DNA of 64,000 nucleotides, taken from assembly GCF_020905335.1 (NCBI RefSeq), contig NZ_JAJJMN010000002.1:1178001-1242000 (forward strand). The letters are read 5' to 3'. Source of the stretch: Flavobacterium lipolyticum (GTDB lineage: Bacteria; Bacteroidota; Bacteroidia; Flavobacteriales; Flavobacteriaceae). Shown piece by piece: positions 60,515 through 64,000 of this stretch; the first letter of the stretch is position 1; each line of letters opens with the position of its first letter. Position numbers and translations under genes: made by a program. The notes under the pieces were generated by a model that made no database searches, was not told the origin of the DNA, and worked only from the letters and a program-made list of their open reading frames with translations.

Positions 60515-61159
60515 ATGACCCGAAAAATAACCATTTCAATACCAAAACCTTGTCATGAAAACTGGCATGAAATGTCTCCAACTGAAAAAGGTAAGTTTTG
60601 CAGCAACTGTCAAAAAAATGTAATTGATTTTACAAAATCTTCTAACAGAGAAATTCTTCTTGCTTATAATAAAAATGAAAATTTATGCGGTCGATTCATC
60701 GTATCGCAATTGAACAGGGATATGATTATTCCCAAAGAAAAAAGATCTGTGTGGATGGTCGCAGCAGCATCAATAATTGCATTTTTAGGATTAGGAAATC
60801 AAACAATCAAAGCACAAGAAAAATCAAAAACAGAACAAACAGACCGTAAACAACTCAAAGACAGCATAAAGTCAAAATCTAAAAAAGACTTTGTAACCTA
60901 TACAGGAACTTTATATGATTCTCAAGATAATCCATTACCCGGGGTTAATGTTAAAGTAAAGCAAACTAAAGTTGAAACCAAAACTAATTTTGACGGAGAA
61001 TTTACAATAAAAGCAAAAAAAGGGTACATTTTAATATTCCAACATGAAAATTTCTTAACCACCGAATTTAAACTTAATAACGATATTAAAATTAAACCGA
61101 AAATGAGAGATTATTTTCTTACCGGAGATGTGGTTCTGACAGAAACAGAAGATGATTAA
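60515..61159 (+). CDS. Cys-motif membrane protein with a carboxypeptidase-like regulatory domain
   Basis: 214 residues. The N-terminus has ISIPKPCHENWHEMSPTEKG followed by FCSNCQKNVIDFT, a probable metal-binding Cys-His-Cys-Cys site seen in a common but unstudied Bacteroidota family. A membrane helix follows (about 79-96, WMVAAASIIAFLGLG) and a C-terminal CarboxypepD_reg-like beta-sandwich (TYTGTLYDSQDNPLPGVNVK, then TKTNFDGEFTIKAKKGY). The Cys part would be cytoplasmic and the beta domain periplasmic. Function unknown. Divergent from corA. Confidence 0.82.
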   Translation: MTRKITISIPKPCHENWHEMSPTEKGKFCSNCQKNVIDFTKSSNREILLAYNKNENLCGRFIVSQLNRDMIIPKEKRSVWMVAAASIIAFLGLGNQTIKAQEKSKTEQTDRKQLKDSIKSKSKKDFVTYTGTLYDSQDNPLPGVNVKVKQTKVETKTNFDGEFTIKAKKGYILIFQHENFLTTEFKLNNDIKIKPKMRDYFLTGDVVLTETEDD

Positions 61160-61184
61160 ATATCATTTTACTAATTATAATCCA

Positions 61185-61215
61185 TAAAAAAACCGGATCA
61201 TTTCTGACCCGGTTT
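61185..61215 (-). terminator. Terminator of the ATPase/nuclease cassette, GAAA loop
   Basis: On the minus strand AAACCGGGTCA pairs with TGATCCGGTTT (one G-U), GAAA tetraloop, then T run. The stem begins inside the stop codon of the small nuclease-like gene. Nearly the same hairpin stands at 62821-62848. Confidence 0.9.
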
Positions 61216-61654
61216 ATTTTGGAACATATTTACATTGCACACTTTTGATTTCTAAAAGTCTTCCATGTTTTTTCGCAAAAGCCTGTTTTAAATTATTTGT
61301 TTCTGCTCCTGATAAAGGGTTTCTGGAACTCACAATAAAACCGAATCTTTTCTCTTTAGGAATTCTAATTACACTATCTTCAAAAATATTTATTGTACTT
61401 ATTATTTGATCTAAAGCAATCTTAACATCCTTTCCTTTTAATTCTACAAAATAAAAATCATTGTTAAAGTATCGAACAAAACCAAAATCACATTTTTGAA
61501 CTTGTTGCGAAGTTATTAAACAATTATCTATTCTAATTTTTGTAAAATCTTCTTTTGAATCAATTTCAAATCTTTTTCCATTTTCAGAAGCTACTTTACT
61601 TTTTGAACAACAACCTTGATTTGCTATAATTAATTCATCAAAACTATTGTGCAT
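61214..61654 (-). CDS. Small PD-(D/E)XK-like protein, partner of the ATPase
   Basis: 146 residues, no signal or membrane segment. A central block reads TKIRIDNCLITSQQVQKCDF, then FYFVELKGKDVKIALDQI. The Asp in KCDFGF (about 54) and Glu-x-Lys in VELKG (about 71), on two strands and followed by a helix, match the PD-(D/E)XK nuclease core. Two more strands follow (RFGFIVSSRNPL). It could be a small DNase effector; it could also be a non-catalytic relative. Its start overlaps the end of the ATPase gene by 11 nt (61644-61654), so the two are translationally coupled. Confidence 0.75.
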   Translation of the reverse strand: MHNSFDELIIANQGCCSKSKVASENGKRFEIDSKEDFTKIRIDNCLITSQQVQKCDFGFVRYFNNDFYFVELKGKDVKIALDQIISTINIFEDSVIRIPKEKRFGFIVSSRNPLSGAETNNLKQAFAKKHGRLLEIKSVQCKYVPK

Positions 61655-62786
61655 ATCGTAACTCTGTTAATTTGTCAAATTCCTCAGAAATAATATCTGA
61701 AACTCCATCAATTGCATTTGTATCTATACTACGAAATTCTTCATTTTTAATAGAATATATTTTTCCATCATTTTTAACTTCATACACGGAAATATCATCA
61801 TAATCTATCCATTTATCTTCCGATACAATTGAATTTATTTTTTCTCTTAGATCAAGATGCTCGTTAAATGTGTTTTTTGCAAGCATCAAGGTATCTAGAG
61901 ACGAAAGTACATATGGACTATGAGTTGTAATTACGACTTTATATTTAGTAGGATTAACACCTGTAATTATATAGTCAATTAATTTTTTTTGTTTAATTGG
62001 AAATAGATTCAACTCTGGCTCTTCTATTAAAAAAGATAATCTTGGTTCAATTCTTCCTCCTAACAATTCAAAATCCAAAACTAAAAGCAACGGGATCAAC
62101 GACTGAATTCCACTGGAAGCCTGAACAAGAGAAACTTCTATTTCTCTGTTATCCCCGATCCTTACAAAATCCTGATTATGTCCATTAAAAAAATAAGCAA
62201 TATCAAATTCTGGATATTTTTTCGTTCGTATTCTCTTTCTGGCTACTTCGAATTTCCCAGCAAAATCTTTAAAACAATTTGGAAGAGCCACATTATTCGC
62301 CCAAAGGCCTGATATAGAAGCACCTACCAAAGAAGTCAAAATTCTCTCCGCAGGAATATATATATTTTGTCCTCTCATAGATAAGGAACGAATAGCAATC
62401 TGCATTTCTTCATTTGACTCTATAATATTTTTATCTTTTACAAAATATTCGAGATCGTCTAATGTCATTTTCTTTCGGGAATCATTCAATACTGAAACTT
62501 CATTTCTAAACAATCTAATATGTAAATCAGTATCAAAGTAATCAATTATACTATTTTCACAATTAAAATCAATATTATAATTCTCAAGTTGATCTCTAAA
62601 CGATGCAAGAAATTCTGAATTGTCGACTCTGTTATTTAAAACATTTGAAAATTCTCTAAAAATTGAAATCAGCTTCGCCAAAACACTTTTTCCAGTAGAA
62701 GTATCTCCAATAAACACAACATATTTAGTCAAATCTATTTCAGCTTCTTTAATAGGTCCAAAATTTTTAACTATTAATTTTTCCAT
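61644..62786 (-). CDS. OLD/AAA15-type ABC-like ATPase
   Basis: 380 residues. ABC/SMC-type ATPase: Walker A FIGDTSTGKSVLAKLI (about 26-41), a helical insert (about 45-210), signature-like LVQASSGIQSLIPLL (about 223-237), Walker B SFLIEEPELNLFPIKQ (about 249-264) and H-loop VVITTHSPYVLSS (about 285-297). No Toprim domain follows, unlike OLD nucleases or GajA; a separate small PD-(D/E)XK-like protein is encoded instead. ATPases of this type act as sensors in several phage-defence systems (Septu, Gabija, PARIS). A palindrome ATTTACAATGTAAAT lies 13 nt before the start. Confidence 0.88.
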   Translation of the reverse strand: MEKLIVKNFGPIKEAEIDLTKYVVFIGDTSTGKSVLAKLISIFREFSNVLNNRVDNSEFLASFRDQLENYNIDFNCENSIIDYFDTDLHIRLFRNEVSVLNDSRKKMTLDDLEYFVKDKNIIESNEEMQIAIRSLSMRGQNIYIPAERILTSLVGASISGLWANNVALPNCFKDFAGKFEVARKRIRTKKYPEFDIAYFFNGHNQDFVRIGDNREIEVSLVQASSGIQSLIPLLLVLDFELLGGRIEPRLSFLIEEPELNLFPIKQKKLIDYIITGVNPTKYKVVITTHSPYVLSSLDTLMLAKNTFNEHLDLREKINSIVSEDKWIDYDDISVYEVKNDGKIYSIKNEEFRSIDTNAIDGVSDIISEEFDKLTELRYAQ

Positions 62787-62798
62787 GTCTTATTTTGT

Positions 62799-62813
62799 AT
62801 TTACAATGTAAAT
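62799..62813 (-). promoter_or_regulatory. 15-bp palindrome before the ATPase gene
   Basis: ATTTACAATGTAAAT: 7-bp half-sites around a single central base, 13 nt from the ATPase ATG. Candidate operator controlling the cassette. Confidence 0.5.
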
Positions 62814-62820
62814 ATAACAA

Positions 62821-62848
62821 AAAAACCGAGTCATTTCTGACTCGGTTT
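62821..62848 (-). terminator. Stranded minus-strand terminator
   Basis: AAACCGAGTCA (62823-62833) pairs perfectly with TGACTCGGTTT (62838-62848). Read on the minus strand it has a GAAA loop and a T run. On the plus strand there is no T run. No minus-strand gene lies upstream within the window. Confidence 0.85.
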
Positions 62849-63101
62849 CTCAATACTTAGTACTAATTACTTAATACTTATTTCACTTCTTCAAAACTAA
62901 CAAATCCTCTATATCAACAACTTACAAATATATGGTACAAATAAGGTACAAAATAAATCCAATTTATTTCTAGAAAACAGGTACTGAATAGAAAAAACAA
63001 AACTATTAAATGAAAGATTTTTCCGCTCATCTGACTTATATTAGGACAAAACTCTATTATTTTTACAAAGTTATTTTATAATAGTCCTTAAAACAATTTA
63101 A

Positions 63102-64000
63102 ATGTCCTTAGAAAAACACATAGATTTTAATCAATTAACCCCTGATCAGTTCGAAGAGTTATGCTTCGAGCTTTTGATTAAGCATGGCTTTACATCGATA
63201 ACCTGGCGACAAGGTGGAGCCGATAATGGCAGAGACATAGAAGCAGATTTATCCATTTCGAATGGGGTGCTTGGTACATTCAATGAAAAGTTCTTTTTCG
63301 AATGTAAGAGATATGAAAAAGGGGTTCCTCCTTCTGAACTAAATTCAAAAATAGCATGGGCTGATGCAGAAAAACCGCAACATATAGTATTCTTTATTTC
63401 TTCGTACCTTACAAACAATGCCAGAGAATGGCTTGAAAAAGTTAAGAGAGACAGATTTTACAAAATTCATGTTATCGAAGGAAAGAGATTAAGTAAATTA
63501 CTTGCCCAGCACGATGACCTGATTTCAAAATATTTTATAAGAAACAAGTTTATTAATCTTTTAGATGAAACAATAAGTAAGTGGACTCTACATAACCTTA
63601 CACCAAATTTTTGGACTTACTATTATCTTTTAGATAACCTCGACAAAGAGTCGCTGACTACCAACCAACTTGTATATCTTTATGTTTTATATTTCACTAA
63701 CTATTCTAAATTAGAGGAACTGGAAAATGAAATTTATCATGGAATAGAAATTTCAGATCACATAAATGAACTAAGTGAAATACTAAAGAAAAAACATTCA
63801 TGTGACCATTCGGTTTTGATTGGCGAATTTGATTTTGATACCCTAAGTGATGAAGGCTATCTAAAAGCGGACGAGGAAAGCAACTTAAAATTCAAATATG
63901 ATTTTATTGCTTGTGAGGCTTCAACAAAACAACCAGATGGAAAAAGCTACAAATTATGTTATTATCTATTTAGACGTTTATCAGAAAACGAAAGTATTGA
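63102..64000 (+). CDS. Mrr-like restriction endonuclease-domain protein, 3' end beyond the window
   Basis: 299 codons are visible, open at the window end. ATG at 63102 (MSLEKHIDFNQLTPDQFEEL). Residues about 8-110 form an Mrr-type PD-(D/E)XK domain: QFEELCFELLIKHGF helix, GGADNGRDIEAD (catalytic Asp about 44) and FFFECKRYEKG (Glu-x-Lys about 67-69), then HIVFFISSYLTNNAREWLEK. The long rest is helical without a motif I know. Such N-terminal domains occur in standalone or multi-gene anti-phage nucleases with a large C-terminal sensor. It diverges from the ATPase/nuclease cassette. Confidence 0.85.
   Translation, partial: MSLEKHIDFNQLTPDQFEELCFELLIKHGFTSITWRQGGADNGRDIEADLSISNGVLGTFNEKFFFECKRYEKGVPPSELNSKIAWADAEKPQHIVFFISSYLTNNAREWLEKVKRDRFYKIHVIEGKRLSKLLAQHDDLISKYFIRNKFINLLDETISKWTLHNLTPNFWTYYYLLDNLDKESLTTNQLVYLYVLYFTNYSKLEELENEIYHGIEISDHINELSEILKKKHSCDHSVLIGEFDFDTLSDEGYLKADEESNLKFKYDFIACEASTKQPDGKSYKLCYYLFRRLSENESI

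Follow-up and report, generated by a model that had tools for sequence, protein, structure and literature searches.

Gene organization and conserved motifs

The window analysed here is a 64,000-nucleotide stretch of the Flavobacterium lipolyticum genome (contig NZ_JAJJMN010000002.1, positions 1,178,001 to 1,242,000). Towards its right end lie two overlapping genes, termed A and B, that probably form an abortive anti-phage system of the WonAB type, corresponding to PDC-M29 in the PADLOC collection. Gene A (61644..62786, minus strand) encodes an ABC ATPase of 380 amino acids (aa) related to AAA_15/AAA_21 and matching PDC-M29A, and gene B (61214..61654, minus strand) encodes a predicted PD-(D/E)XK nuclease of 146 aa, marked by residues D56, E71, K73 and Q83 and matching PDC-M29B. 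Both reading frames are open and intact. The stop of A overlaps the start of B by 11 nucleotides (ATGCACAATAG, 61644..61654, minus strand), an arrangement predicted to couple their translation. This overlap had been described in an earlier, sequence-only reading of the locus, and it recurs, identical, in all 11 close Flavobacterium relatives (loci L001-L011).

The ATPase motifs, which that reading considered intact, are invariant across an alignment of 16 A sequences (alignment A2, which omits the close relatives L003, L004, L006-L008 and L011, along with L018, cut by a contig end). They comprise G27, GKS at 32-34, R148, SG at 225-226, EEPE at 255-258 and TTHSP at 287-291. Gene A exceeds the Pfam cut-offs of AAA models only, AAA_15 and AAA_21; it reaches that of no nuclease family, and no Toprim match appears up to E 1, consistent with the earlier description of an ATPase devoid of a nuclease domain. 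In B, the Asp...Glu-x-Lys pattern picked out from the window is present and conserved: E71 and K73 are invariant in alignments of 14 and of 100 sequences, the latter (alignment A3) using 89 of 131 listed proteins, and conservation reaches 90% or more at C45, D56 and Q83.

Sequence searches with B return nothing above cut-off in Pfam or NCBIfam and, against the sequences of solved structures, only matches at E 0.5 and worse. Structure prediction confidently assigns B a PD-(D/E)XK nuclease fold, as the sequence-only reading had suspected, with the D...(D/E)xK motif that characterizes the superfamily placed on the core alpha/beta fold of the model. B is accordingly described here as a predicted PD-(D/E)XK nuclease. 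A CdiA-type tRNA nuclease, the identity implied by one automatic UniRef name (P0012), was rejected, as no CdiA Pfam model is matched at E 0.01 by any of the 100 sequences in alignment A3; a CdiA-CT structure is nonetheless among the structural matches of B. For A, the nearest solved folds in structural comparison are PtuA proteins, and SMC and Rad50 heads are also among the matches. AriA structures are absent from the best 50, which is no evidence against kinship.

Relation to known ATPase–nuclease systems

Among 5,027 PADLOC models, PDC-M29A is the best match for A (155.9 bits, against 86.9 for the next, AriA), and PDC-M29B is the best match for B (35.8 bits, E 1.9e-09). The order of the two window proteins also agrees with that of the profiles. 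The pairing had been regarded as one without a name, a view that does not hold: it is already catalogued as PDC-M29, and WonAB, a relative that shares its design, was tested experimentally in 2025 (PMC12137116). The pairing is therefore of a known kind, and the defence role, put forward earlier by inference, is the best-supported role for it. PDC-M29 itself is a profile pair that carries no description, and the name was not found in the literature searched. According to the available part of one source, PDC entries stem from a guilt-by-embedding preprint (Payne et al. 2024), and most PDCs of the core set await validation (PMC12988326).

WonAB was described from a Vibrio prophage by Adams et al. 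(2025) and consists of an OLD-type ABC ATPase and a 16.1-kDa PD-(D/E)xK nuclease. The accessions printed for WonA and WonB are AWB73975.1 and AWB73976.1 (PMC12137116). In the available text of that report, WonAB aborts phage infection by stopping translation, and both genes are required, as are K34, R182, E300 and H333 of WonA and K71 of WonB (PMC12137116). DNA is left intact, and its authors suggest an rRNA or tRNA target; WonB is toxic only in the presence of active WonA, simple sequestration is ruled out, and the genes do not behave as a simple toxin–antitoxin pair. The same text links WonAB to PD-T4-4 and to an operon of Krishnan et al. (2020), "OLD-ABC ATPase + Novel REase", into which, by its account, every detected WonAB homologue falls (PMC12137116).

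The window pair resembles WonAB in being a two-gene operon of an ATPase followed by a small PD-(D/E)xK nuclease, and in its accessory location, WonAB lying in a prophage. K33, R148, E256 and H289 of window A correspond, by motif only, to the four WonA residues named above, and K73 of B is likened to Lys 71 of WonB on the same basis. The two systems differ in the spacing between the Walker A lysine and the conserved arginine (148 in WonA, 115 in window A), and in that the window pair occupies a chromosomal slot after dnaK in a Flavobacterium host. WonAB primer patterns, a short proxy for the WonA and WonB sequences, gave no match in the viral contigs or loci. The operon of Krishnan et al. (2020), known by description only, has the same domain pairing in one operon.

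Two better-characterized groups share part of this architecture. Septu (PtuA–PtuB) and the retron I-A PtuAB module likewise combine, in two genes, an ATPase of PtuA-type fold with a small nuclease partner, but the partner there is an HNH protein, whereas for B neither HNH nor PtuB is matched up to E 1. A scores 21.8 bits against the NCBIfam retron Ec78 PtuA model (cut-off 500) and matches the PADLOC PtuA profiles only at E 7e-10. Septu membership was rejected for the missing HNH partner and the sub-threshold equivalog score. PARIS (AriA–AriB) also joins an AAA_15 ATPase to a nuclease, but AriB is a Toprim/DUF4435 protein, and neither Pfam nor PADLOC gives a match of that kind for B up to E 1, so that membership in PARIS was rejected for the same kind of reason. 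Gabija and OLD were set aside because the 380-aa A lacks a Toprim match.

By analogy with WonAB, A would dimerize with ATP and carry B on its conserved C-terminal extension. A variable insert of A would read a phage cue, the identity of the trigger being a guess, and A would then activate B in an ATP-dependent manner. B would then cut RNA, a tRNA or an rRNA being a more probable substrate than DNA (the target is again a guess), and such a cut would stop translation and abort the infection. Alternatively, oligomers of A could hold B inactive in a cage, as in Septu or PARIS, until a trigger frees it to cut tRNA or DNA. The PtuA-like fold of A and the rank of AriA among its profiles lend this some appeal, and AriA does sequester AriB (PMC11455837). 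Available portions of two further reports describe depletion of tRNA-Tyr by the retron-Eco7 PtuAB (PMC11555353) and cleavage of tRNA-Tyr by a Septu system (PMC13096335). Yet B is predicted to be a PD-(D/E)XK enzyme and by profile is neither HNH nor DUF4435/Toprim, and in WonAB, where toxicity of the nuclease needs an active ATPase, simple sequestration does not apply (PMC12137116, available text). Caging is for these reasons an unlikely arrangement for A and B. The WonAB-type reading would extend this kind of immunity to a Flavobacterium, and it ties PDC-M29 to a mechanism tested elsewhere and hence to a concrete, assayable activity, that of a PD-(D/E)XK nuclease licensed by an ATPase and leading to translation arrest. 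Beyond this link, the analysis adds a variable ATPase block, an E. coli homologue in a P2 hotspot and a chromosomal slot with duplicated terminators.

A variable block in the ATPase

Across 12 orthologues, mean pairwise identity of A is 95-98% in residues 1-40, falls to 22-29% in residues 81-140 and returns to 93-94% in residues 341-380, with residues of about 46-345 variable and the C-terminal 40 conserved. Median pairwise nonsynonymous (dN) and synonymous (dS) divergences are 0.87 and 0.94 for A46-140, compared with 0.019 and 0.79 for A1-45, values to be read with caution because the variable block aligns uncertainly and dS is near saturation. For B (11 sequences), the medians are 0.117 and 0.89. 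Distances between orthologues follow those of dnaK closely for B (r 0.85, nine loci) and more loosely for A (r 0.53, 10 loci). A hypervariable middle combined with conserved ends and a conserved B fits a sensor tied to a fixed effector, and the variable block is likely to be the sensor. The contrast between the variable ATPase middle and the conserved nuclease serves as a guide to the probable position of the phage sensor.

L006 and L007 differ in 2% of dnaK nucleotides and in 28% of A residues. Their dS is 1.24 in A46-345, compared with 0.38 in B, 0.45 in A346-380 and 1.05 in the 45 codons of A1-45, a contrast that hints at allele exchange and is no proof of it. Between the window and L001, dS stays at 1.1-1.2 along the whole of A.

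Co-occurrence and distribution of the pair

A and B are a real unit that co-occurs across phyla. Of 31 loci outside the B model, 29 have a B match directly after A: 8/8 genome loci, 13/15 survey loci and 8/8 viral-contig loci, the last among the matches listed. Conversely, none of nine more distant ATPases (A-profile E 5e-16 to 9e-9) is followed by a B-like gene. These counts bear out the proposed two-gene cassette. The profiles behind them were made with 16 sequences of A and 14 of B, with E-values assuming 100,000 sequences and viral-contig matches to the A family taken at E of at most 1e-5. ATPases with a profile E above 1e-8 or without an open frame over 250 aa (for example, L049) are omitted, L038-L040 duplicate L004, L002 and L005 and are counted once, and two of the 31 loci, L098 and L100, are near-identical. 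The two survey partners missed by the B profile (L052 and L055) still show, by eye, an acidic residue followed by ELK. Among the hosts of the family are Thiomargarita, Cytophagales, Snowella, Cloacimonas and Magnetococcales.

The pair is also associated with phages and prophages. It is present in eight of nine viral-contig loci among the matches listed, and PHROGs profiles place phage genes beside it in all four loci tested (replication, portal and terminase genes in L100, replication in L098, portal and major head protein in L104, and portal in L099). Two phage records match A; both are unannotated, and one covers 98% of A at 31% identity. A plasmid search returned three records matching only about the last third of A. 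Pairs 99.0-99.9% identical to that of L100 occur in 10 of 5,426 complete Escherichia coli genomes, where the annotation says no more than "AAA family ATPase" and "hypothetical protein". Over 120 residues, B from E. coli and window B share 36.7% identity, and the counterparts assigned by motif in the E. coli pair are K33, R181, E301 and H336 in A and K71 in B. In the single E. coli record examined (L106, 6001-7748), the pair lies between a replication endonuclease gene and a portal gene, which is the gpA–gpQ locus of P2 prophages. This locus has been shown to harbour anti-phage systems (PMC9122126); the available hotspot section of that report makes no mention of the E. coli pair being assayed.

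A small operon of two overlapping genes that occurs on viral contigs and in accessory slots could also be a toxin–antitoxin or element-maintenance module with no part in phage defence. The rapid divergence of the middle of A between conserved ends points instead to recognition of a changing foreign target, the E. coli homologue sits in a known prophage defence hotspot, and the toxin–antitoxin description does not suit WonAB either, as far as the available text of PMC12137116 goes. Such a module is therefore very improbable, and defence of the WonAB type is preferred.

The source genome carries two more such pairs, L027 (3961-5795, minus strand) and L028 (4793-6659, plus strand). Both ATPases match PDC-M29A best, and the L027 partner matches PDC-M29B. 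The L028 partner matches no PADLOC model and hits the B profile, which was itself partly built from it. The L027 pair adjoins a gene that by eye resembles a lysyl-tRNA synthetase. In L028, L102 and L104, the conserved arginine is placed differently (lysine-to-arginine gap of 91-92) and B is larger (191-202 aa); these pairs perhaps represent a second sub-type of the family. In each of the four Thiomargarita/Thiotrichaceae loci, a conserved open reading frame of about 125 aa lies directly upstream of the pair (L012 7618-7998, L014 7619-7996, L015 2100-2477 and L016 7617-7994). The L012 and L015 copies have no Pfam match and the L012 copy no PADLOC match; it is a possible third component in these loci.

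The dnaK–corA locus

The pair follows dnaK in all 11 close relatives, eight with an intact dnaK and three with only a 3' remnant, as in the window. corA lies downstream of B in the window and in eight of the 10 close relatives with enough flanking sequence, the exceptions being L005 and L009. A survey of dnaK (57 of 61 genomes matched, 30 loci fetched) includes 11 loci in which corA follows dnaK with no pair between them.

Two terminator-like hairpins fall within 61100-63150, where 0.4 are expected. One (61190..61215, minus strand) overlaps the stop codon of B. The other (62820..62851), compared with the dnaK loci of relatives, is the dnaK terminator, placed at 62823..62848 on the minus strand and left upstream of A; it was considered as an operator and rejected because of this identity. 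The two hairpins are identical at 23 of 26 bases, and the 5.77-Mb genome has only three sites within three mismatches of the hairpin, two of them being those in the window. The sequence-only reading was right that a terminator follows B, but as a near-copy of the dnaK terminator it is not fully private to the cassette. An AT-rich palindrome (TATTTACAATGTAAATA, 62798..62814, minus strand) is likewise present in the leader just upstream of A, where it was read as an operator. Of 12 loci, only one has a full palindrome over the inner 15 bases, and nine keep an 11-base core; given this poor conservation, its reading as a putative operator is weak.

At the empty site of L068, a single terminator stands where the window has hairpin, A–B and hairpin. 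By eye, near-identical hairpins flank the pair in L002, L004, L007 and L008. They are less alike in L003, L006 and L011, L010 retains only a portion of one downstream of B, and similar hairpins are missing from L005 and L009. Within the genus, such a cassette can recur in a single chromosomal slot, here beside a conjugative element with several further defence genes. Tentatively, the dnaK–corA gap of Flavobacterium could be a dedicated slot at which Won-type cassettes are gained, lost and re-armed. Homologous recombination between flanking copies of the dnaK terminator would insert or cleanly delete the whole cassette, and the sensor block of A (about 46-345) would be swapped or driven to change while the nuclease stays constant. 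The dedicated-slot idea as a whole is less likely than not. A literature search for a dnaK hotspot in Flavobacterium gave nothing relevant among the papers listed.

The site between housekeeping genes, together with the SMC and Rad50 heads among the structural matches of A, might suggest a host DNA repair ATPase and nuclease akin to Rad50/Mre11. Against this stand the empty dnaK–corA sites, the presence of the pair on viral contigs and its sparseness in the genus. B is found in five of 150 Flavobacterium genomes (one weakly) and A above 400 bits in four; 34 of the 150 have some match to A, mostly to other subfamilies. A repair function is hardly plausible on these grounds, and the WonAB-type reading stands.

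The adjoining conjugative element

To the right of the pair, a remnant of the dnaK 3' end (TTTTGAAGAAGTGAAATAAG, 62877..62896, minus strand) marks the junction with an integrated conjugative element, which ends at about 62.9 kb. A gene with an Mrr_cat domain starts at 63102 (plus strand) and matches PDC-M58A. It does adjoin the pair, as pointed out earlier, but it belongs to this separate element. As a third component of the system, it was rejected: it lies beyond the dnaK remnant, on an element with an integrase, a relaxase and a coupling protein. Since the Mrr gene is taken to be cargo of a separate element, its nearness to A and B is no evidence of shared function.

In the source genome, dnaK itself is on another contig, followed by a helix-turn-helix gene and a phage-type integrase, and a mobilisation gene, the relaxase and the coupling protein lie to the right of the window. 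In relative G008, dnaK and A lie on one contig, about 125 kb apart. The 3' end of dnaK in Flavobacterium seems to be an attachment site that integrative elements use recurrently (L067, L073, L075 and L090), and among these four an integrase after dnaK is confirmed by Pfam only in L073. Besides the Mrr gene, the adjoining element has matches to Lamassu LmuA and LmuB, PD-Lambda-1, Septu PtuA and PtuB, and OLD, with stretches to the right of the window end at L026 9323-13269 and L029 14697-18155.
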